Source: Fuerstiella marisgermanici (GTDB lineage Bacteria; Planctomycetota; Planctomycetia; Planctomycetales; Planctomycetaceae). From it: a stretch of 64,000 nucleotides of DNA. The notes under the pieces were generated by a model. That model saw only the letters and a list, made by a program, of their open reading frames with translations. It did not search any database and was not told the DNA's origin. The stretch's first letter is position 1; each line of letters opens with the position of its first letter. This document shows positions 833 to 13,427 of the stretch, piece by piece. The DNA lies in contig NZ_CP017641.1 in the NCBI RefSeq assembly GCF_001983935.1, positions 3,348,001 to 3,412,000 on the forward strand, in the 5' to 3' direction. The position numbers were made by a program, and so were the translations under genes.

Positions 833-2093
833 GCTGGCGCGACAAGTGAGTATTGGTTAGTCTTTTCGTGTCGTAACATCGGACTTCACGAGGAGAGGAC
901 AAGAGATGTCGACAGTTGAACTGGCGGTCACCCAGGAGCTGACAGGAAACATTGTTCATTACTTTGATCAATTGAAAGACCCGCGTTCCAACATCAATCG
1001 TCTGCATCTGCTTGGTGATGTGATTGTGATCGCCATTTGCGGAGTGCTGGCCAACGCCGACGGCCCCAGTGCGATTGCGGAATGGGCGCGACTGAATGCC
1101 GATGGCCTGCAGAAACACCTGGCACTTCCGCATGGCATTCCGAAAAAAGATACGTACCGGCGCGTCCTTTCTCTCCTGAAGCCGAACGACTTTCAAGCGT
1201 GCTTCGTGCAATGGATTGAATCGCTGGAAGGACTTTCCGACGAACAGAAAGAAGGCTACAGAAAACAGATTGCGATTGATGGCAAAGCACTCCGTCGATC
1301 ACATGACAAAAAGAATGGGCTGGGTGCGTTGTTCATCGTGAGTGCGTGGGCTTCTGATCAGGGGATTTCTCTGGGACAGGTGGCGACGGAAGAGAAGTCG
1401 AACGAGATCACCGCGATCCCGAAATTACTGAACGAAATCAATATCGATGAGGCGATCATTACGATTGACGCAGCGGGTTGTCAAAAAAACATTGCGCAGC
1501 AGATCGTGTCTGGCAATGCAGACTATGTGTTAGCCCTGAAAGGCAACCAACCGAAACTCTATGAGGTCGTGCAGAAGTTTTTTCTCGATCACCTGGAGGA
1601 TGACTTCGCTCGCTGTCCCGTCAGTCGCTATGAAGAAACAGAGAAGGGACACGGTCGGCAGGAACAGAGAATCTACTATCAGGCGACCGTGCCTGTCGAT
1701 TTTGACGTGGGCCACAAATGGGCCGGACTCAAGACCATCGGAACGGCGATCCGAATGTACGAGCAGGACGGCATTCATCATTCTGACGTTCGCTACTACA
1801 TCAGCAGTCTGCGTCGCAAAGGCGAGCTGTTCGCAACAACGGTTCGTGGTCACTGGGCCATAGAAAACACGCTGCACTGGAGTCTCGACATGACCTACCG
1901 CGAGGATGAGAGTCGAGTCCGAAACCGAATCTTCGCGAACAATTTGTCATGGCTCAGACGACTCACACTCAGCCTCATCAAGAAACATCCTGGCAAACAA
2001 AGCAACGTCATGAAAAGAAGAATGGCCGGATGGAACATTGACTATTTGATGCAAATCCTTACCGGCAAAACAACTTAGTATGCGCTGGCCCTG
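803..2093 (+). mobile_element. ISAs1-family insertion sequence, complete (1,291 bp)
   Basis: The element runs between two copies of CCTCACCGGG. Its ends are imperfect inverted repeats: the left end starts CAGGGCCAGCGCGCACT and the right end, reverse-complemented, starts CAGGGCCAGCGCATACT (15 of 17 match, the first 12 perfectly). It carries one intact transposase gene (906-2078). The right inverted repeat contains an ATG at 2080, two bases after the transposase stop, that is in frame with the rest of the interrupted host gene. Perfect duplication and an intact transposase suggest a recent insertion. Confidence 0.95.
906..2078 (+). CDS. ISAs1-family DDE transposase
   Basis: This 390-residue transposase catalyses movement of the surrounding element. 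Its length and sequence fit the ISAs1 (H-repeat-associated) family: the N-terminal region has [10 protein letters not shown], and the RNase H-like core shows [11 protein letters not shown] (first Asp), ITIDAAGCQ with [10 protein letters not shown] (second Asp region), and [14 protein letters not shown] with YREDESRVR (Glu region). A ribosome binding site, GAGGAGA, lies about 9 bases before the ATG. There are no internal stops, so the protein is probably functional. It reads in the same direction as the interrupted host gene. Confidence 0.95.
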
Positions 2094-4257
2094 CCTCACC
2101 GGGCGCAGCGTCTTTGAAGAATTCGACGATCAGATTGCAAGACCGCTCGGCCTGCAGGATTTCCGACGCGACCGCGATACGCAGTATGTCACCGGCGACG
2201 ATTCTGTGTATCCCGCGTACCCGTTTCGCTTGAGTACCCGCGATCTGGCAAAGTTCGGTCTGCTGTTTCTGCGCAACGGCCGCTGGGACGACAAGCAACT
2301 GATTCCAGAGAACTGGATCGTCGAAAGCACGACGTCGTATTCCGATGCCGGTGCGTCCGGCGGTTACGGCTACATGTGGTGGGTGGAGGCCGATGGCAAG
2401 CACTTTCCGGGCGTGACGTTGCCGAAAGGTTCGTATTCCGCGCGAGGGTATCGAGGTCAGTATCTTGTTGTGATTCCGGCATGGGACGTGGTGATCTGTC
2501 ACCGAGTGAACTCGTTCCAGAAAGGTACAGCAGTCTCCAAGGCGGATTTTGGAAAGCTGCTGAACCTGATTTTCGCCGCTCGTCCGACTTCAAAAAAGGA
2601 CATTGAGCAACCGTCTGCATCGACCATCGAAAAGCAAAGCGAGTTTGACCTCATCATTCGCAACGGGCTGGTCGTTGATGGCACTGGCCGGCCGGGATTT
2701 CAGGCTGACGTTGCCGTGCGAGATAACGTCATCGTGGCAATCGGACAGCTGGCGGGTGCGAAGGCCGACCTTGAGATCGACGCCGCCGGAAAGGTCGTCT
2801 GTCCAGGATTCGTTGACCTGCACAGTCACGCTGAAAAGGGGCTGGTGTCGGACGACCCAGCTCGTCGAGCCGCCCCCAATCTGATCACGCAGGGCATCAC
2901 GACGGTCGTCGTCAATCAGGACGGCGGCGGGCCGCTCGACCTGGCAAAACAGCGGCAGCAGATGCAGCATTTAGGCGTTGGTATGAATGTCTGTCAGGTG
3001 ATTGGTCACGGAACCATTCGCCGGCACGTCATGGGCGACGATCATGAACGTCCAGCCACGCCCGCCGAAATCAAGCGGATGCAACAGCTTGTTAAAGACG
3101 CAGCCAAAGCGGGCGGATTCGGCATGTCGGCGGGGCTGGAATACGTGCCTGGTCGTTGGAGCAACTCAGCGGAAATGGAAGCACTGTCCGCAACTGTGGC
3201 GGCCAGCGATGGAGTCACCATTGTTCACGAACGAAGTTCCGGAAGTCGGCCAATGTGGTTCTTGCCGAGTCGTGATTCGGCCGACCAACCTTCGATGCTG
3301 GACAATTTGCAGGAACTGATCGACATCGCTGCGGCGACAAATGTTCGAACCGTCGCGACTCATATCAAAGCTCGAGGCACCGACTTCTGGGGCTCCAGTG
3401 CCAAGATGAACGAAGCGATAAGGGCCGCTCGTGCGGCCGGCCTGCCGCTTTACGCGGATCAGTACGCTTACAACACGAGCGGTTCGGACGGCCGCATCGT
3501 CCTGATTCCGTCGTGGGTTTCCTCTGTCCGCGACAATGCAACCGCCGCAGACAGTGCAAAGCGAACTCCGGCCGAACAACTGCAATTGGTGCTCGACGAT
3601 CATTCGCTGGCCGAAAATCTGAGGCAAGATGTCGACTACGAAATTACTCGACGCGGCGGAGCTAAACATATCCTGATCGTGTCGCATCCCAACAAGTCAC
3701 TCAACGGAAAATCACTGGCCGACTACGCGGCGAAACTGAAAACCGACGCCGTCGAAGCTGCGATTAGCTTACAGCTGGAAGGCGATCCAAAGCGGCGAGG
3801 CGGTGCCCAGTTGCGAGCGTTCTCGATGTCTGAAGCGGATGTCGAAGCATTCGCCAGCACGCCGTGGACAGCGACATCCAGCGATGCGGGAATCGCGCTG
3901 CCGAGTGACGGCCCCGTGCATCCGCGATTCTACGGAGCGTTCCCGCGGAAGATTCGTCGCTACGCGATTGATCGCGGCCTGATCACGATTGAAGAGGCCG
4001 TTCGTGTGTCGACTTCCCTTCCTGCGGAGATTCTGAAGCTGAAAGATCGTGGGATCATTCGAAAGGGAGCTATCGCCGACCTGGTGATCTTTGATCCGAA
4101 AACAATTCGCGACACGGCGGACGCGTTTGATCCTCATCAATTTGCTGAAGGTATCGACTATGTCTTCGTCAACGGAAAACTGGCCAGCGATGGACAACGC
4201 TGGCTGGGCAGCCTACACGGGAGCGTGCTGACGAGCAGCCATCGCGCACCGCCATAA
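2080..4257 (+). pseudogene. Serine hydrolase/D-aminoacylase fusion, 3' fragment after the ISAs1 insertion
   Basis: Codons from 2104 onward continue the gene broken at 802. The first part completes the serine hydrolase fold (for example [15 protein letters not shown] and [12 protein letters not shown]). From about base 2640 an amidohydrolase of the N-acyl-D-amino-acid deacylase type begins ([17 protein letters not shown]). It has the HSH metal motif in [10 protein letters not shown], later metal-ligand candidates in TIVHERSS and VATHIKARG, and [17 protein letters not shown] near the catalytic Asp. The coordinates start at an ATG supplied by the insertion sequence; translation restarting there would give a 725-residue protein without a signal peptide, so it would stay in the cytoplasm. 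The intact ancestor would cleave N-acyl-D-amino acids or D-peptides outside the cytoplasm; that substrate is inferred from the family. Confidence 0.85.
2094..2103. repeat. Target-site duplication of the ISAs1 element, right copy
   Basis: CCTCACCGGG is identical to 793-802 and is followed directly by the continuation of the host frame. Confidence 0.93.
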
Positions 4258-4331
4258 TGTTGTTTGCATGCCTGGTACGCCACACGATAGGCTGGCTGGA
4301 TAATCGCTAACGAATTGCACGAAGCAGTTTC

Positions 4332-4424
4332 CCTTTTGTTGTGGACGGTTCGGGCTCGTGCGAAACAACCTTCATCGTCCGAACCGCCTGTTCCGCGGGC
4401 ACAAGTCAGCGAAAGTCGCTGTAA
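4332..4424 (+). repeat. R3 repeat, copy 1 (93 bp structured intergenic element)
   Basis: The element runs from CCTTTTGTTGTGGACGG to CACAAGTCAGCG...CGCTGTAA and is also found at 41154-41246 and, reversed, at 48871-48956. The ends TTGTG and CACAA can pair. A 3' hairpin AGCGA-AAG-TCGCT follows; in copy 2 the stem is AGCGT/ACGCT, a compensated change. It lies about 100 bases upstream of the start chosen for the dehydrogenase gene. Confidence 0.75.
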
Positions 4425-4521
4425 GCTGAAACCATTATCTCACTTCCTCCCTTGCATACAACGGTCGAACTTTCGCTCGCGATTCCTCACAACGCAGCAT
4501 TGCGGCCACAATGAGTCTACT

Positions 4522-7500
4522 ATGAACCGACCTTCCTGCTCCCGCTGGCTTTTTGCTGTTCTTGTCGCGATAGCGTGTTTTGCAATGCCCGTTGCTGCAG
4601 ACGACTTCACGCTGCACACGTTTGAACGTCAGCAGTTAACCGGCACGTACTTTTCCGAAGGGGCGAACGCGGCCGATCTTAATGGAGACGGTGTAGCCGA
4701 TGCGGTTTATGGGCCGTATTGGTTTGAAGGGCGGGGCTTCACGAAGAAGCATGAGATCTACAAGCCGGTTCCGCAGAACGTGAATGGGTATGCGGACAAC
4801 TTCTTCAACTGGCCATACGACTTCAACGGCGACGGTCGCAACGATGTGTTCGTTGTGGGTTTTCCGGGGACTCCGGCGTATGTCTACGAAAACCCGGGAC
4901 CGGACGGGTTTGATTCTCACTGGAAGAAGCACCAGGTCTTCGACTGGGTTTCGAATGAGTCTCCTCAGCTGATCAATGTTGTTGGCGATGAACGCCCGGA
5001 ACTGGTTTGCACGCGAGACGGTTTCTTCGGTTTCGCCACGGTGAATTGGGAACGGCCCTTCGAGACGTGGACCTTTCACCCGATTTCCGAACAGATCGCG
5101 TCGAAGAAGTTCGGTCATGGGCTGGGCATCGGCGATGTGAACAGCGACGGGCGCATGGATGTCATTCACGCGGGAGGCTGGTTTGAACAACCGTTGACTC
5201 ATGCATTGACGTCGCGATGGCTGTATCACGAAACGTCATTCAGCCAGTCGTACGGCGGAGCGGAAATGTATGCTTACGACGTCGACGGAGACGGAGACAG
5301 CGACATTATCACCAGCCATTCGGCGCACAACTTTGGTCTTGGCTGGTACGAACAAATCGAAGGCGGTGACGATCCGAAATTCAAGCACCACCTGATCATG
5401 GGTGAGCATCCATCGGAAAACAAATACGGCGTGTTGTTCAGCGAACCGCATTCGGTCGCGTTGGCGGACATCGATGGAGACGGGCTGAAGGACATCATCA
5501 CCGGGAAGACATATTGGTCGCATCACAAACAGAGTCCACTGTGGGACGCGGGAGCGGTGGTCTACTGGTTCAAGCTGGTTCGCAACAAAGACGGAGTTGA
5601 CTGGATTCCTCACAAGGCTGACGGCGAAGCGGGGATTGGTCGGCAAATTTCGATCGTCGACGTCAACAACGACAAGCTTCCGGACATCGTGGTCGGCGGG
5701 ATGCTGGGAAGCCATGTTCTGACTCACAAAACCAAATCGGTTTCAAAAGACGAATGGCTGGCGGCTCAGCCGAAACTTTACGCCGGTGAAAAACTGCCGT
5801 CCGTCGAAGGAGCCACCGCGTTGCGTGGCCCGAAGTCGAAGATCGACAAAAAGACGGGGCGAGCGACAGGGGCCATCGAAGGCGAATCGCTAACAGCAAA
5901 GGTCACGCGAGGCACGGCGAAGGCTCAGGACATGGGCAACTTCCGTGGCGACAAGTGGAGCAACCAGTCGCAGCTTTGGTGGACAGGTGGACGAATTGGC
6001 GACAAGCTGACGTTGGACCTGCCGAAGTTTACCGGCACTGTGGACCTCGATGTCGTGCTGACAATCGCGGGCGACTATGGAGTCGTGCAATTGTCACTGG
6101 ACGACCAAAAGCTGGGCGAACCGATCGACCTGTACAATCCAGCGGTTGTGACAACGGGCGTGCTTTCGTTTCCGAAGCTGACTGTTGAAGGCAGCAAACA
6201 CACGCTGACGGCTCAAATTGTCGGCGCGAATTCGAAGGCGAAGAAGTCGTTTATGTTCGCCATCGATTATCTTCGAGTGAAGCAGGCGGACGGCAATTAT
6301 GTGGCTGGCCCCGCCGTGAAAGCTCCTGCGGCAGCGAAGACCATCGCCGGCATGAAGCCGAAGTCGATGGATGGCAAGGACGTGAATCTCGACTTCGAAA
6401 CGGGAACTTTGGCAGACTGGACGGCCACAGGCAACGCGTTCGAAGGTCAACCGATCAAGGGCGATACGGTTTCCAAACGTCGCTCGGACATGAAGAGTGG
6501 CCATAGTGGCAATTTTTGGATCGGCGGCTTCGAACATCATGGCGACAAACGCGTCGGCACGCTGACGTCGGCTCCGTTTGTGGTATCTCATCCTTACGGA
6601 AGTTTTTTCGCCAATGGCGGGCCGACGGAAAAAACACGAGTCGAATTGGTTCGCAAAGACAACGGCAAAGTCTTCTTCAAAATCGCCGGCACGACAAGCG
6701 AAACAATGCGGCAGGTGGTGGTTGACCTGCGAGCTCACGTGGGAAAGGAAATCATGGTGCGGCTGGTCGACGCCAGCACAGGCGGCTGGGGGCACCTGAA
6801 CTTCGATCACTTTCGACTGCACGAAAAGCGACCCGCGAAAGTCACCGCACCACCGATTCAGCTTGTGCTAGACGAGTATCCTCATGCGGGTTTGTCAGCC
6901 GACGAAGCGGCCGCGGCGATGAAACTTCCCGAAGGATTTTCCGTAACGGTCGGCGCGGCGGAACCCGACATTCAACAACCGATCGCGATGGCGATTGATG
7001 ATCGAGGTCGCGTGTGGGTCGCGGAGGCGTACGAATATCCTGTGCGAGCAAAGGGTGACACCGGCCGCGACCGCATTCTGATTTTCGAAGACACCGACGG
7101 AAACGGAACGCTCGATAAGCGCAAGGTCTTCAGGGAAGGTTTAAACCTGGTCAGTGGGTTGGAAGTTGGATTCGGCGGTGTCTGGGTCGGAGCGGCTCCG
7201 TACTTCATGTTCATCCCCGACAAAGACGGCGACGACATTCCCGACAGCGAACCACAAATTCTGTTGGACGGCTGGGGATATCAGGACACTCACGAAACCT
7301 TGAACGCGTTCATCTGGGGCCCGGACGGCTGGCTCTATGGCTGCCACGGCGTGTTCACTCATTCCAAAGTCGGTAAGCCGGGAACTCCTGACGACCAGCG
7401 AACGCCACTGAACTGCGCCGTATGGCGCTACCATCCGACGCGTCACGAATTCGAAGCGTTCGCTCAGGGAACCAGCAACCCGTGGGGAGTCGACTTCAAT

Positions 7501-10410
7501 GATCACGGCCAGGCATTCATCACGGCCTGCGTGATTCCTCACTTATATCACATGATTCAGGGCGGTCGTTATCAACGACAGGGCGGGCAGCATTTCAACA
7601 AGCATACGTACCGCGACATCGTCACGATCGCCGACCACCTGCACTATCTGGGAGCCACCCCGCACGGCGGCAACAGTAAATCCGACGCAGCCGGAGGCGG
7701 GCATGCGCACGCTGGTGCGATGATTTATCTTGGCGACAAATGGCCGCAGAAGTATCGCAACCAGTTATTCATGAACAACATCCACGGCCAGCGACTGAAC
7801 GTCGACGTGTTGAAGCCGAATGGTTCCGGCTACGTTGGCAGCCATGGCCCGGACTTCCTGCTGACCGGCGACAAGGCCTCACAAATTCTCAACATCCGAT
7901 ACGGCCCCGACGGCAATGCTTGGATGATCGACTGGTACGACATGCAGGCCTGCCATCGCCGAGAATCCGAAGTCCACGATCGCACCAACGGCCGCATCTA
8001 CAAAATCAGCTACGAAAGTAGCCATCACGCTCCGCGTGATGAAAGCAACACGAACGACTCACGATCGAATGGAAAAACCTCAGCTCAAACTGGTGCTGGC
8101 ATCACGCGGAGCGTGATGGCTACTATTTCCAACGCAACCGACGCCGAGTTGGCGGAACTCGTTCTCCACAGGAACGACTGGTACGTTCGACACGGTCGAC
8201 GGCTGTTGCAGGAACGAGCCGCAAAGGGCGCGATCGCCGGCGAAGCTGTCGCGAAGTTGGAGAAAATTCTGACGTCACATGACGACGACACTCGCCGTCT
8301 GCGGGCGGCCTGGGCTCTGCATGTGATCGGTGAACTTAATGCGAAGAATATTCAGACAATGCTGGCCGACAGCAGCGCGTATGTTCGAGGCTGGGGCGTT
8401 CAATTGGCGATGGAAGCCGCTCGCAACAAGCCACCACAGGAACTCATCGCACAATTCACGACGATGGCTCGCGAAGATGATTCGCCGGTCGTGCGGATGT
8501 ATCTTGCTTCGGCGGCTCAGCTAGTTCCCGCCGGACAGCGATGGGACCTGCTGCAGAACCTGACCAGCCACGCAGAAGACGCATCCGATCACAACCTGCC
8601 GATGCTCTACTGGTACGCCGCCGAAGTATTGGCCGACGTTGACGCCACACGAGCACTCGCGTTAGCGATGTCGGCGGGCGAACAGATTCCGCTGCTACGA
8701 GAATTCATGCTGCGACGAATCGGCAGCGGTGGCGCACAAGCGTCGCTGCAGATTTTGGTGAAGGGACTCGGCGTGGCTCCGACCGATGACGTGAAGCTTA
8801 CGTACCTCAACGCCATTCGAACGGCACTCAAAGGCCAGCGCAAAGCGAACGCGCCGGAGGAATGGGCGGACGTTTCGTCAGCACTGCTAAAAAGCGACAA
8901 CGCCGATCTGCGAATTCAGGCGACGGCACTGGGAGTCACGTTCGGCGATTCCGCGGCGTTGCAGGCGATGCGAAGTCAGATCGAAGATGCTTCCGGCAAT
9001 GAGAAAGATCGCCTGGTGGCTCTGCAATCATTGCTGGATTCAAACGATTCCGGATTGGTCCCGACACTGCAATCGCTGCTCAAGTCCGATGGTTCTCTTC
9101 GCGTCGCCGCGATTCAGGGATTGGCTCAGTACAACGACACTTCGGTGGCTCCGGCGCTGTTGTCGAACTACGAATCGTTCACACCAGACCAAAAGCGGAT
9201 GGCTTTGGGAACACTTTGTGCGCGAGCCAGCTCGGGTGTCGCATTACTCAAGGCGGTCGAAGCCAAACAGATTGCCGGCACGGATTTGACGGCAGATCTT
9301 GTCAGGCAATTGCAATTCCTGAAGAACAAGGAAGTCAATTCGCTGCTGGAAAACGTCTGGGGAACGGCTCGCGAATCAGCCGCCGACAAAGTGGCGATGA
9401 TCGCAGAATACAAAGCACTGGTGGAATCAACCGAACACCCCGAGCCGAACCTCGAAATGGGCCGAGCGGTCTTTGCGAAGACATGCATGAAGTGCCACAT
9501 TCTTTATGGAGTCGGCAACAAGGTTGGCCCCGATCTGACAGGATCAAACCGTTCCAACATCGACTACCTGCTGAGCAACATCGTCGACCCGAGTGCCGTG
9601 ATGGCAAAGGAATATCGCGCCACGATCATCGCAACGGAAAACGGCCGCGTCATTACGGGACTGATCAAAGCAGAAGATGCCAGGTCTGTCACGGTCCAGA
9701 CCGGCGATGCTTTGGTTGTCGTACCCAAGGACGAAATTGAAGAACGAGTCGAAAGCGACAAGTCGATGATGCCGGACGATCAGTTGAAGCAATTCACGCC
9801 GCATCACGTGCGTTCGTTGATCGCTTACCTGCGAGCCAAACAGCAGAATCCGATGCTGGCGACAAAGGACAACGAGTCGACAATTTTCACCGGCAAAGAC
9901 CTCACTGGCTGGTCAGGAACTGAAGGCCTGTGGTCTGTCGAAAACGGAGAACTCGTCGGTCGCACAAGTGGACTCAGACGGAACGAATGGATCGTCAGCG
10001 ACCTGTCCGTCGACAACTTCCATCTGACACTGGAAGTGAAGCTGGTGGACAATGCCGGCAACAGCGGCATTCAGTTTCGCAGCCACGCCAAAGACGGCGA
10101 AGTCAGCGGCTACCAGGCCGACATCGGCAAAGGCTGGTGGGGCAAGTTGTACGAAGAACACGGCCGAGCTTTGTTGTGGGACAAGTCCGGCGAGCAGCAC
10201 GTGAAACTCGGCGACTGGAACACGTACGAAATCATCGCCGAACGCAAACGCATTCGCACGCTGATCAACGGCCAGCTTTGCGTGGATCTGAGTGACCCCG
10301 ACGGTGCAAAAAACGGCATCATCGCCTTCCAGCTTCACAGCGGCGGAAAAACCGAAGTCCGTTTCCGCAACATCAAACTGAACGTCTTCACACAGGAGAT
10401 ACAAAAGTAG
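4522..10410 (+). CDS. Giant secreted FG-GAP/PVC dehydrogenase-like/HEAT/cytochrome c/DUF1080 protein
   Basis: The start at 4522 (MNRPSCSRWLFAVLVAIA) gives a signal peptide ending PVAADD; codons upstream look non-coding and include the R3 repeat. Domains in order over 1,962 residues: FG-GAP/VCBS calcium-binding blades (about 40-400; DLNGDGVAD, DVDGDGDSD, DIDGDGLKD); two carbohydrate-binding-like modules (about 450-770); a PVC-type membrane-bound-dehydrogenase propeller (about 790-1,160); HEAT-like repeats (about 1,200-1,600); a cytochrome c domain with CMKCH near 1,654; and a C-terminal DUF1080 (3-keto-disaccharide hydrolase-like) domain from about 1,790. It probably oxidises or hydrolyses sugars outside the cytoplasm, with electrons passing through the haem domain; this is inferred from the families. 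An R1 repeat pair encodes residues about 1,166-1,201 between the propeller and the HEAT repeats. The stop codon lies inside another R1 copy. Confidence 0.88.
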   Translation: MNRPSCSRWLFAVLVAIACFAMPVAADDFTLHTFERQQLTGTYFSEGANAADLNGDGVADAVYGPYWFEGRGFTKKHEIYKPVPQNVNGYADNFFNWPYDFNGDGRNDVFVVGFPGTPAYVYENPGPDGFDSHWKKHQVFDWVSNESPQLINVVGDERPELVCTRDGFFGFATVNWERPFETWTFHPISEQIASKKFGHGLGIGDVNSDGRMDVIHAGGWFEQPLTHALTSRWLYHETSFSQSYGGAEMYAYDVDGDGDSDIITSHSAHNFGLGWYEQIEGGDDPKFKHHLIMGEHPSENKYGVLFSEPHSVALADIDGDGLKDIITGKTYWSHHKQSPLWDAGAVVYWFKLVRNKDGVDWIPHKADGEAGIGRQISIVDVNNDKLPDIVVGGMLGSHVLTHKTKSVSKDEWLAAQPKLYAGEKLPSVEGATALRGPKSKIDKKTGRATGAIEGESLTAKVTRGTAKAQDMGNFRGDKWSNQSQLWWTGGRIGDKLTLDLPKFTGTVDLDVVLTIAGDYGVVQLSLDDQKLGEPIDLYNPAVVTTGVLSFPKLTVEGSKHTLTAQIVGANSKAKKSFMFAIDYLRVKQADGNYVAGPAVKAPAAAKTIAGMKPKSMDGKDVNLDFETGTLADWTATGNAFEGQPIKGDTVSKRRSDMKSGHSGNFWIGGFEHHGDKRVGTLTSAPFVVSHPYGSFFANGGPTEKTRVELVRKDNGKVFFKIAGTTSETMRQVVVDLRAHVGKEIMVRLVDASTGGWGHLNFDHFRLHEKRPAKVTAPPIQLVLDEYPHAGLSADEAAAAMKLPEGFSVTVGAAEPDIQQPIAMAIDDRGRVWVAEAYEYPVRAKGDTGRDRILIFEDTDGNGTLDKRKVFREGLNLVSGLEVGFGGVWVGAAPYFMFIPDKDGDDIPDSEPQILLDGWGYQDTHETLNAFIWGPDGWLYGCHGVFTHSKVGKPGTPDDQRTPLNCAVWRYHPTRHEFEAFAQGTSNPWGVDFNDHGQAFITACVIPHLYHMIQGGRYQRQGGQHFNKHTYRDIVTIADHLHYLGATPHGGNSKSDAAGGGHAHAGAMIYLGDKWPQKYRNQLFMNNIHGQRLNVDVLKPNGSGYVGSHGPDFLLTGDKASQILNIRYGPDGNAWMIDWYDMQACHRRESEVHDRTNGRIYKISYESSHHAPRDESNTNDSRSNGKTSAQTGAGITRSVMATISNATDAELAELVLHRNDWYVRHGRRLLQERAAKGAIAGEAVAKLEKILTSHDDDTRRLRAAWALHVIGELNAKNIQTMLADSSAYVRGWGVQLAMEAARNKPPQELIAQFTTMAREDDSPVVRMYLASAAQLVPAGQRWDLLQNLTSHAEDASDHNLPMLYWYAAEVLADVDATRALALAMSAGEQIPLLREFMLRRIGSGGAQASLQILVKGLGVAPTDDVKLTYLNAIRTALKGQRKANAPEEWADVSSALLKSDNADLRIQATALGVTFGDSAALQAMRSQIEDASGNEKDRLVALQSLLDSNDSGLVPTLQSLLKSDGSLRVAAIQGLAQYNDTSVAPALLSNYESFTPDQKRMALGTLCARASSGVALLKAVEAKQIAGTDLTADLVRQLQFLKNKEVNSLLENVWGTARESAADKVAMIAEYKALVESTEHPEPNLEMGRAVFAKTCMKCHILYGVGNKVGPDLTGSNRSNIDYLLSNIVDPSAVMAKEYRATIIATENGRVITGLIKAEDARSVTVQTGDALVVVPKDEIEERVESDKSMMPDDQLKQFTPHHVRSLIAYLRAKQQNPMLATKDNESTIFTGKDLTGWSGTEGLWSVENGELVGRTSGLRRNEWIVSDLSVDNFHLTLEVKLVDNAGNSGIQFRSHAKDGEVSGYQADIGKGWWGKLYEEHGRALLWDKSGEQHVKLGDWNTYEIIAERKRIRTLINGQLCVDLSDPDGAKNGIIAFQLHSGGKTEVRFRNIKLNVFTQEIQK
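8017..8124. repeat. R1 inverted palindrome pair (REPIN-like) inside a coding sequence
   Basis: Two palindromic units face each other. The first (8017-8041) has core CATCACGCTCCGCGTGATG; the second (8100-8124) is its exact reverse complement, CATCACGCGGAGCGTGATG. The pair spans 108 bp, exactly 36 codons, and keeps the host frame open. It encodes a polar linker (SSHHAPRDESNTND onwards) between RIYKISY and the next conserved block beginning near NDWYVRH. The same palindrome recurs at 10406-10573. Confidence 0.85.
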
Positions 10411-10573
10411 CCATCACGCTCCGCGTGGTGCCAGCAACAGCGCCCGCGCCTCACTTTGCAAACCGCCCCAACAATTATTCCCTCCAACACACCTTCCAAT
10501 CATCCGTCGTACCTGAACCGAGTTAAGTCCGTCTGCGAATTGCATTTCGTCACGGCGGAGCGTGACGGCTACT
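10406..10573. repeat. R1 inverted palindrome pair (REPIN-like) between two genes
   Basis: The left unit (10406-10430, CATCACGCTCCGCGTGGTG) overlaps and supplies the TAG stop of the upstream gene. The right unit (10548-10573, CGTCACGGCGGAGCGTGACG) is inverted and ends 14 bases before the next start codon. The right palindrome carries paired changes that keep its stem. The bases between the arms show no gene. Confidence 0.82.
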
Positions 10574-10586
10574 ATGAAAGCTTCCC

Positions 10587-13427
10587 ATGAAACTGCAGTT
10601 CTTTGTCATTACGGCTGTATTGCTTGCCGCGTCAACGTCGACGGCAGCGGACAAGCTGGACATCGTTATTTGTGGCGGCAGGATCGTCGATGGCACAGGC
10701 GCGCCTTGGTATGTGGCAGATGTCGGTATTGACGATGCGAAGATTGTTCGGATCGGACACATCGCTGCCGAAGACGGCGAACAGGTCATCGATGCCACCG
10801 GGTTGATCGTGGCTCCCGGTTTCATCGACATGATGGGACAAACGGCTTCGCCGATGGTCGAAGATCCCAAAACGGCCATCAACCTGCTGACTCAGGGGAT
10901 CACCACGATCAACGCGGGTGAAGGCGGTTCGGCCGCTCCGCTTAGTAATGATGAGGGAAAGCACAAAGGCTATACGACCATGGCCGAGTACTTCACTCTG
11001 GTCGAATCCAAGGGGCTGCCGGTCAATGTTGTTCAGACCGTGGGGCATACTCAGGTGAGACGCATCGTCTTCGGTGACGCCGACAGACGTCCGTCTGCTG
11101 ACGAACTCACAAAGATGCAGGACCTTGTGCGAGAAGGAATGGAAGCCGGCGCCATTGGCGTTTCAACCGCGTTGATTTACCCACCCGCCGTCTACGCAGA
11201 AACCGAAGAAATCGCGGCCCTCGCCGCGGCCGCCGGTGAATATGGCGGCCGCTATTACACTCATATGCGAAACGAGGGCGACAAGCTGCTGGAGGCGATT
11301 GATGAAGCACTTGAGATCGGTCGCCAGGGAAAAACGCCCGTTCATATCTTTCACCTGAAAGCCGCCGGTCGACAGAACTGGGGCAAGATGCAGCTCGCGA
11401 TCGCCAAAATCAAAGCCGCTCGAGCCGCGGGTGAACAGGTGACAGCGGACATCTATCCTTACGTCAACAATGGTCTTGGCATCGCTGCACTGATCCACCC
11501 TCGGCATTTTGGTGAAGGGTACGACAAGCTTCGTCGCCGTTTAGACGATGCGGACCTGCGAGCGGAAATTCGCACAGAGATGGAAACCACCGCCGGCTGG
11601 GAGAACTGGTTTCGTCACGCCGGTCACGATTGGAATCGAATCATCATCGGGCGCAGCAACGTTGCTGACTATAAGGAGCTTGATGGTCAGTCGGTCGCTG
11701 CGATCGCAAAGGCGACTGATGAAGATCCGTGGGATGTGTTTTTCAAGTTGGTCAAAGCCGGAGCGTTCGCGCTGCCTGAAACGATGACCGACGCCAACAA
11801 GATTCTGGCCATGCAGCAGGACTTTGTTTCGTTCTGCACAGACGTTGGGCCTGCGGGAGGAAGTCGTTCTGCGTCGCACCCGCGAGCCTTCGGGGCGTTT
11901 CCACGAATGCTGTCAAAGTATGTCCGGGATCTCGGAGCAATCTCGTTGGAACGAGCGGTCGCTCAGGCCAGTGCTGCGGCCGCAAACGATGTGTTGGCCT
12001 ACGATCGAGGCCGCATTTCCGTCGGACTTGCGGCTGACGTCATCGCGTTTGACTACGACCAGCTAACGGACCACGCCGACTTCGTGAATCCTCACGCCGT
12101 GTCGGAAGGCATGAAGCACGTGATCGTGAACGGGGTGAGTGTGCTGAAGGACGGCAAACAAACAGACGCTCGCCCGGGCCGAATTCTCCGTGGCCCTGGT
12201 TACAAACGGGAGACGGCTCCGCACAATGTAAAATCGGGCGAGGACGTCGCAGCGTTTGCCAGCTACGACAGGCATATGCATGACTTCATGCAAGAGCACC
12301 GAGTTCCCGGCGCTTCCGTCGCCGTCACAGATCAGGGCAAGGTTGTGTTCGCTCGCGGTTACGGTTACGCCGACGTCGCGACTCGCGAACAGGTTGATCC
12401 CGAAAGTCTCTTCCGGATTGCGAGCATCTCGAAGCCGATTACGGCAGTGGCGATTTTGCAATTGGTCGAAAAAGGCCAGCTGAAACTCGACGACAAAATT
12501 CTTTCGGTGCTAAATCATAGCGATGACATCAAGGCGGCGGGCGACGCATTCGATCCTCGCTGGGAGGACATCTCCATTCGGCATTTGTTGCAGCATCGCG
12601 GAGGCTGGGACCGTGGCAAGTCCTTCGACGCGATGTTCAAACCGATCGACTTCGCCAAACAAGTCGGCACTGACGCTCCCGCTGATCAGGCGACCATCAT
12701 CAAAGCAATGTTCTCGCAGAAACTCGATTTCGATCCGGGCGAACGTTACGCGTATTCCAATTTCGGCTACTGTTTGTTGGGTCGAGTCATCGAAAAACTG
12801 ACCCACCAATCCTATGAAGACTACGTGAAAGAAAACGTGCTCGCCCCAATCGGCATCACCACGATGCGAATCGGAGCCACGCACTTGCAAGGCCGAGCGA
12901 AGAACGAAGTACGCTACTATCAGCCCGGCAAAGGCAAGTCTGTGTTTCAGAAGACTCTGGGTCAGGAAGTCCCGTGGCAATACGGTGCGTGGCATTTGGA
13001 GGCAATGGATTCACACGGCGGCTGGATTGCGTCAGCAACGGACCTCGCCAAATTCGCCGCGGCCTTCGACGACCCTCAGCACTGCAAACTACTTTCCGCA
13101 GAGAGCATCAAACTGATGTACGAACGACCGCCGGGCTTGGCGGGGCACAAAGAAGACGGTACACCTGAAGATAAGTTCTATTCGCTCGGCTGGATCAATC
13201 GCGTCGTTGACGGTGGAAAACTCAATCACTGGCACACGGGTTCACTCAACGGCACCGCGACGATTCTTATCCGCCGACATGACGGCAAGAACTTTGTGGC
13301 ATTGCTGAACTCGCGAGTCAGTCCGTCATCAGGACATCTCGGCCGAGACATCGATAGCCTGCTGCACAAGGCCGCCAATGACGTCACGGAATGGCCAGAC
13401 AGTGCTCCCGATTCTGGCGGACACTGA
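10587..13427 (+). CDS. N-acyl-D-amino-acid deacylase-like/serine hydrolase fusion
   Basis: A secreted 946-residue protein with signal peptide MKLQFFVITAVLLAASTSTAA. Residues about 22-530 are an amidohydrolase of the D-aminoacylase type (DIVICGGRIVDGTGAPW; later ligand candidates THMRNEG, IFHLKAAG and FCTDVGPAGG; then ASHPRAFGAFPR). The usual HxH pair after PGFID is replaced by MMGQ, so metal binding differs from the classical enzyme or the domain belongs to a variant subfamily. Residues about 555-930 are a class C beta-lactamase-like serine hydrolase with SISK near 613-616, YSN near 720 and HTG near 883, all intact. The two domains occur in the opposite order in the IS-broken gene at 242-4257. 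Together they would suit hydrolysis of D-amino-acid-containing peptides or acylated D-amino acids; the substrate is inferred. Confidence 0.87.
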   Translation: MKLQFFVITAVLLAASTSTAADKLDIVICGGRIVDGTGAPWYVADVGIDDAKIVRIGHIAAEDGEQVIDATGLIVAPGFIDMMGQTASPMVEDPKTAINLLTQGITTINAGEGGSAAPLSNDEGKHKGYTTMAEYFTLVESKGLPVNVVQTVGHTQVRRIVFGDADRRPSADELTKMQDLVREGMEAGAIGVSTALIYPPAVYAETEEIAALAAAAGEYGGRYYTHMRNEGDKLLEAIDEALEIGRQGKTPVHIFHLKAAGRQNWGKMQLAIAKIKAARAAGEQVTADIYPYVNNGLGIAALIHPRHFGEGYDKLRRRLDDADLRAEIRTEMETTAGWENWFRHAGHDWNRIIIGRSNVADYKELDGQSVAAIAKATDEDPWDVFFKLVKAGAFALPETMTDANKILAMQQDFVSFCTDVGPAGGSRSASHPRAFGAFPRMLSKYVRDLGAISLERAVAQASAAAANDVLAYDRGRISVGLAADVIAFDYDQLTDHADFVNPHAVSEGMKHVIVNGVSVLKDGKQTDARPGRILRGPGYKRETAPHNVKSGEDVAAFASYDRHMHDFMQEHRVPGASVAVTDQGKVVFARGYGYADVATREQVDPESLFRIASISKPITAVAILQLVEKGQLKLDDKILSVLNHSDDIKAAGDAFDPRWEDISIRHLLQHRGGWDRGKSFDAMFKPIDFAKQVGTDAPADQATIIKAMFSQKLDFDPGERYAYSNFGYCLLGRVIEKLTHQSYEDYVKENVLAPIGITTMRIGATHLQGRAKNEVRYYQPGKGKSVFQKTLGQEVPWQYGAWHLEAMDSHGGWIASATDLAKFAAAFDDPQHCKLLSAESIKLMYERPPGLAGHKEDGTPEDKFYSLGWINRVVDGGKLNHWHTGSLNGTATILIRRHDGKNFVALLNSRVSPSSGHLGRDIDSLLHKAANDVTEWPDSAPDSGGH

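Follow-up and report, generated by a model that had tools for sequence, protein, structure and literature searches.

Here we describe a pair of inverted repetitive extragenic palindromic (REP) sequences that lies in frame inside a large gene of the planctomycete Fuerstiella marisgermanici. The gene is part of a 64,000-nucleotide (nt) stretch of DNA (contig NZ_CP017641.1, positions 3,348,001 to 3,412,000 of the forward strand), which we call the window and in whose numbering coordinates are given unless a genome is named. The pair resembles a REPIN (a REP doublet forming hairpins) that was inserted in the reading frame; the observation is real and the identification is well supported. It is also not an isolated case. 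Judging from the sequences compared, such palindromes have entered the linkers of several proteins of this bacterial family, ordinary and essential ones alike.

The palindrome pair and its host gene

Two identical 24-mers (GTAGCCATCACGCTCCGCGTGATG) stand head to head at 8018-8041 on the forward strand and at 8100-8123 on the reverse strand, each folding into a hairpin with a perfect 8-bp stem and a TCC loop, preceded by an unpaired GTAGC. This bears out the exact inverted palindromes of the original prediction, which measure 106 nt from REP to REP and 108 nt with the outer A and T. The inverted repeat reaches arms of 34 nt (8017-8050 and 8091-8124) with 91% complementarity. When up to three mismatches are allowed, the 24-mer pattern is matched three times in the window and never in 100 dinucleotide shuffles. 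The RNA fold of positions 8011-8130 has an energy of -63.2 kcal/mol (z -11.3; none of 200 shuffles was as low), and the DNA fold of the same 120-nt stretch gives a z of -11.5. A short palindrome (20-40 nt) with an unpaired GTAG at one end is what defines a GTAG REP, and the target has this form. GTAG REPs are also said to lie mainly between genes, whereas the target copy lies within one; we do not take intergenic location as defining because intragenic copies have been described for them (PMC3733652). The features of the host gene are as follows.

4522-10410, forward: host gene, 1962 amino acids (aa) from the likely ATG at 4522 (open reading frame and profile matches)
8018-8041, forward: left REP, GTAGC plus an 8-bp hairpin with a TCC loop; encodes (S)SHHAPRD
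8042-8099, no strand: spacer between the two REPs; lacks the TCCGGA motif found in longer copies
8074-8091, forward: codons for KTSAQT, possibly left over from the native linker; the resemblance to KTSAPT of a congener (G004) is suggestive only
8100-8123, reverse: right REP, the inverted copy; encodes ITRSVMAT
10407-10430, forward: REP of the same family at the gene end, from the sequence pattern
10548-10572, reverse: partner REP completing the gene-end REPIN, from pattern and covariance matches

The host open reading frame (ORF; 4315-10410, open from a TTG at 4315) is continuous and reads through the pair without interruption, as was predicted, and the linker peptide includes SSHHAPRDESNTNDSR. 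The host protein was first labeled a dehydrogenase, a name that its profile matches do not bear out: these are FG-GAP, DUF7133/PVC-type heme-binding, HEAT, a heme-binding domain, and 3-keto-disaccharide hydrolase. Its PF23500 match stops at 8016, one base ahead of the element, and the REP pair is therefore placed directly behind the propeller-type domain. The claim of a REPIN-like inverted pair, in frame between the propeller and the HEAT region, is supported. A second REPIN of the family sits at the end of the gene (10407-10572), where the stop codon TAG (10408-10410) is the TAG of the GTAG. It occupies the same place in G004, and the GTAG supplies the stop codon in both genomes.

Most homologues of the host gene have a shorter linker. 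The DNA on either side can be aligned in three of the same genus (G001, G003, and G004), and neither REP is there. The predicted insert of 108 bp, or 36 codons, is right as a span, but the net gain relative to these three is only 78 nt, or 26 codons. Measured between the same anchors, the target's linker has 53 aa; those of 25 of 29 homologues have 24-28 aa, and the remaining four 35, 42, 56, and 56 aa. A second, partly overlapping set from named genomes (80 loci, 73 of them readable) has linkers of 24-31 aa in 71 loci, with 36 and 46 aa in the remaining two, so these homologues do not carry an unrelated linker of equal length, which was the alternative to be considered. Our covariance model of the REP family (R1) had no match at E<=1 in the 60 of these 80 loci that were searched (the other 20 being mostly from Verrucomicrobia). 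A REP common to the homologous 56-aa linkers of two distant homologues was considered and rejected, since one has a weak core and the other a different palindrome. The linker of G017 (L070, positions 2128-2140) holds only the weak REP core (E 0.66); that of G033 (L060, G033:C254:41742-41769) holds a TCTCCCC-TGC-GGGGAGA repeat with two copies in that genome.

The REP family and its copies inside genes

The genome that carries the window (G000; 8.92 Mb, one contig) contains seven sites with the 24-mer at up to three mismatches (control 0), 24 distinct sites with the wider pattern GTAGCCNTCA..TCC..TGANG (26 rows, two of them repeats; control 0), and 13 sites with a looser REP pattern (one control match). 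With seven or 24 sites, the palindrome is multi-copy and not unique in its genome. R1, built from 23 copies, has 97.8% paired cells, with compensatory changes at four of eight pairs and 25 compensatory cells against a shuffled mean of 7.3. At E<=1 it finds 35 matches in G000, 51 in G004, 42 in G005, and three in G001 (E 2.9e-4 for one, the others weak); four further congeners have none. At the stricter E<=0.001 it finds matches in 26 of 81 sampled genomes and 21 of 58 genera of the bacterial family. Many copies and inverted pairs, both expected of REPs, are present: 28 of the 35 matches in G000 form 14 inverted pairs, mostly of 160-190 bp.

For G000, G004, and G005, 106 of the 131 matches were grouped into 67 elements (22 matches of G004 and G005 with E above 0.02 and the three of G001 were left out). 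A codon model, with long ORFs from the window and from these loci as its training set, scored the reading frames of their flanks; on that same set it chose the frame correctly in 1202 of 1233 windows. Most of the 67 elements lie outside confidently coding places. That REP pairs normally avoid coding sequence holds up as a tendency; as a rule it does not, since intragenic GTAG REPs are published (PMC3733652). Eleven elements scored 3 or more (rounded) on each flank; nine of them have flanks on the same strand and in the same frame and are themselves open, and one has flanks on opposite strands. Gene names in the following list, other than the target's, are our reading of the proteins, with IleS and PurL matched to solved structures.

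G000: the target; a ceramidase-like gene (L089); a sulfatase fusion (L090); a DEAD/DEAH helicase (L094); PurL (L101)
G000: a gene of the PVC-heme type (L102), with a single weak REP (E 0.048)
G005: a DUF1553-type gene (L132); PurL (L125); IleS (L126)

At these places (the sulfatase standing outside the comparison) the homologues of congeners have shorter and variable loops. The long in-gene copies encode APRDE on the left (SPSDE in the helicase) and DGY on the right, unlike the right ends of the target and of the short PurL copy of G000. All six in-gene elements of 120-262 bp have an open in-gene frame, as do eight of 30 intergenic ones of that size. An element that is an open coding cassette wherever it stands is unsupported in these three genomes, for the same frame is open in eight of 30 intergenic copies and the others in six and two of 30; three of 60 intergenic orientations were skipped by the loop finder, which also misplaced the loop of the helicase copy. 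The 28 hairpins of 14 in-gene elements comprise 18 perfect stems, six of a type with a 1-nt bulge (one carrying a further mismatch), and four with one mismatch, single mismatches being judged in the tested register. For the PurL insertions of G000 and G005, a three-gene tree gives support of 49 and 32 at the nodes that bear on whether both go back to one event.

The interiors of in-gene copies differ from those between genes. Six long in-gene interiors have, on average, a polar fraction of 0.80 (range 0.63-0.92; counted as polar: S, T, N, P, D, E, G, A, and Q) and a hydrophobic fraction of 0.10. For comparison, 27 intergenic copies (150-262 bp) provide 162 frames, those from a single element being non-independent; their means are 0.505 polar (sd 0.088, maximum 0.788) and 0.31 hydrophobic. 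None of 20000 resamples was as polar as the in-gene interiors, and the same holds against the 14 open intergenic frames alone; two of the six in-gene values (0.63 and 0.77) fall within the intergenic range. The motif TCCGGA occurs in four of six in-gene and eight of 27 intergenic copies, with expectations of 0.24 and 0.93. Because it lies so far above the expected count, the in-gene interiors that bear it are probably REPIN-derived.

Other genera and the IleS junction

Beyond these three genomes we scored 58 loci from the top of the carrier list (G095, G017, G075, G077, G033, and G092; one partial match of 112 was left out), which hold 61 elements, 59 of them scorable. Four are in frame and open, three in G077 and one in G033, the latter in IleS; five have flanks on opposite strands and 46 give no clear call. 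As a separate observation, short copies of G077 (86-104 bp; L251, L254-L257, and L260-L263) away from places of confident coding signal have the in-gene frame free of stops in either orientation, and L253 has one stop in one orientation. Short interiors may explain the openness of the 86-bp copies.

IleS gives a repeated case. A search matched 99 of 110 genomes of the bacterial family, and the junction could be read in 32 of 35 loci (the 30 best-scoring plus five congeners), a sample biased towards carriers, as the query contained the insert. R1 inverted pairs are found there in G005, G108, G033, and G101, which represent four genera, and all four are read in one frame, their left ends encoding APR and their right ends DGY. 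Three further genomes carry other palindromes at the junction: G021 (GTAGGACGG..., with 34-nt arms and 82% complementarity), G077 (50 nt, 48 of 50 self-complementary, with GTAG at the ends), and G127. Altogether, at least three kinds of palindrome occupy the place in seven genomes (REPINs in L126, L267, L270, and L272; others in L268, L274, and L283). In the structure 1ILE the insertion falls between residues 660 and 672, presumably the junction of the catalytic and anticodon-binding domains.

The IleS tree covers 28 of 31 loci, three having no readable junction. It pairs G005 with G004 (support 81) and G101 with G121 (99), where both G004 and G121 have a short loop, and G108 with G127 (100). 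A single ancient insertion inherited by all carriers is rejected by parsimony, as the sisters of G005 and G101 are without the insert. By the same parsimony, the sequences point to at least three independent entries of this REP family into IleS, the alternative being exact losses in the sisters. The short IleS loops of two congeners, L183 (G001, TQNSHQWDGDGYT) and L182 (G007, AHSNHQPESDGYT), resemble joined REPIN ends, either as a remnant or by coincidence.

Origin of the insert and its relation to known palindromes

REPINs reportedly go together with RAYT (REP-associated tyrosine) transposases, a link that is attributed to Bertels and Rainey in 2011. A search for such a gene, advised with the original prediction, brought up one candidate that is flanked by REPs of a close subtype and is broken. 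It lies at G000:C1:6879813-6880464, with REP pairs of the CTTTCCAAG subtype on both flanks; we consider it broken because it reads in two frames (frameshifted). It contains MPNHIHL, which we take to be an HUH-type motif, and a tyrosine in FRRYI that is presumably the catalytic one. An open-frame homologue at G000:C1:5089368 (45% identity over 143 aa) has flanking hairpins that share this layout and have a different stem, GTGGC-ACGAGTC-TCC. Other RAYTs were considered as partners and rejected: among 33 loci only L101 has this REP on both sides, and L156 (G005) has one REP about 0.9 kb away. Near further Y1/RAYT genes of G000 (L010, L013, L014, and L166) there are hairpins tagged GTAG or GTGG whose stems differ, a sign that this one genome may harbor several REP families.

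For the target we see directly that it belongs to the family, is paired, lies in frame, is missing from relatives, and has a sibling REPIN at the gene end. The explanation that we find likely is that a GTAG REPIN entered the linker in this lineage and was retained as harmless. A single-strand transposase of the RAYT type would move the family, and one REPIN would have entered the linker between propeller and HEAT repeats after the split from the congeners. It could then have been kept as an in-frame, stop-free insert at a site where added polar residues do little harm, selection acting as a filter for the reading frame. The short target copy may have arisen from one REPIN that entered and shrank or from two REPs around native linker.

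Several results weigh against this explanation. The target lacks TCCGGA and is shorter than most copies, its right end is read in another frame than in long copies (ITRSVMAT instead of DGY), and the KTSAQT between its REPs is possibly native sequence. Among the ten same-strand elements with coding flanks, one (L088) has its flanks in different frames, with weak scores, and none of the 25 elements of G004 lies in a gene by the flank-frame test. Half of the eight same-strand elements in other genera fail (three by different frames, one by a stop); these failures may come from neighboring rather than interrupted genes. The two parts of the transposase gene reach 16.9 and 29.8 bits against NF047646 (E 0.0043 and 4.7e-7), below its cut-off of 80 bits, which is why we call it only RAYT-like. 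Finally, mobility is known here only as presence or absence between species.

The KTSAQT codons also feed an alternative that we regard as unlikely, in which two REPs arrived separately, or by gene conversion from the gene-end REPIN, around a piece of native linker. Such a history would fit the likeness to the native KTSAPT of G004, the net gain of only 78 nt although the REPs span 106 nt, and the right arm, which has 94% identity (35 nt) with the element at the gene end, at a distance of 2.3 kb. Yet matches as good as KTSAQT/KTSAPT turn up in 131 of 5000 shuffles of the protein and 230 of 5000 of the DNA, and inverted pairs are the usual form of this REP family, so that two hits this close would be a coincidence. 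A chance origin, by which the native linker became palindromic on its own, has next to no probability in our view and is rejected: native linkers do vary in length, as the four longer ones among the 29 homologues illustrate, but the genome has further copies of the exact 24-mer, which did not arise in 100 shuffles and belongs to a covarying hairpin family. It is very improbable, too, that the palindromes go untranslated, the 34-nt-arm stem in the messenger RNA being bypassed or removed. Strong as that stem is (-63.2 kcal/mol), in-gene copies keep the frame and their long interiors differ in amino-acid make-up from intergenic copies, which together point to translation.

A further distinction is that between a tolerated and a recruited insert. 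Recruitment would mean that selection favored the longer polar linker for its benefit to the protein, and that such junctions are therefore preferred; we think this improbable for the target. The polar excess of in-gene interiors (0.80 against 0.505) and the repeated filling of one IleS junction, also by other palindromes, speak for it. Sister species, however, manage without the insert, polar residues are also expected in a merely tolerated loop, and the fractions 0.63 and 0.77 of two interiors lie within the intergenic range, below its maximum. In the original wording, a mobile palindrome had turned into a protein linker: the inserted REPIN stands, while recruitment for a function does not follow, as a tolerated, harmless insert explains the target equally. 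A broader proposal would make REPINs a recurrent source of linkers, with one open frame, parallel entry at junctions, interiors remodeled to polar or disordered sequence between intact ends, and RAYT insertion as the mover; we put it forward tentatively and consider it rather doubtful.

Coding palindromes as such are not new. Ogata et al. reportedly described Rickettsia palindromic elements (RPEs) in 2000 and 2002, so that palindromes of this kind are said to have been known since 2000. Like RPEs (about 100-150 bp), the elements described here lie in frame in unrelated genes and encode a conserved peptide in a conserved frame, from which the right end of the target deviates. They differ in belonging to another phylum, in their GTAG REP ends, and in the presence of a RAYT-like gene of the same family. 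We claim a likeness in behavior, not membership, from a comparison of properties. According to PMC10969869, RPEs are the classic in-frame case.

The nearest relatives are the GTAG REPs themselves. According to Di Nocera et al. (2013, PMC3733652), these occur in the PVC superphylum and also inside ORFs, most often in Opitutus terrae; intragenic REP dimers or grouped repeats encode 20-30 aa, tRNA synthetases are among the REP-carrying ORFs of other bacteria, and REPs supply TAG stops. The palindromes studied here share the unpaired GTAG with its hairpin, inverted pairs, a multi-copy state, copies inside ORFs, and the TAG of GTAG as a stop codon; the broken RAYT-like gene flanked by a close REP subtype is a candidate for a further parallel. 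They are different in that many pairs have lengths of about 160-190 bp, coding for about 55-65 aa, that one IleS junction was hit in four genera, and that empty sister sites and polar interiors are documented. Among the top-listed open-licence papers on REPIN/RAYT systems in Planctomycetes, in-frame REPs in Planctomycetes, and palindromic IleS, we found no report of the IleS pattern.

The target alone is an ordinary member of the in-gene REP set. As a set, these mobile palindromes would lengthen linkers of essential proteins, and with REP ends, a REP-flanked candidate transposase gene, empty sister sites, and repeated IleS hits the origin of coding palindromes becomes testable. If true, insertion driven by a RAYT would supply the mover that Rickettsia-type coding palindromes have lacked. 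As to the surroundings of the host gene, the ORFs that flank it (2080-4254 and 10587-13424) both combine amidohydrolase and beta-lactamase-type domains, in opposite order.

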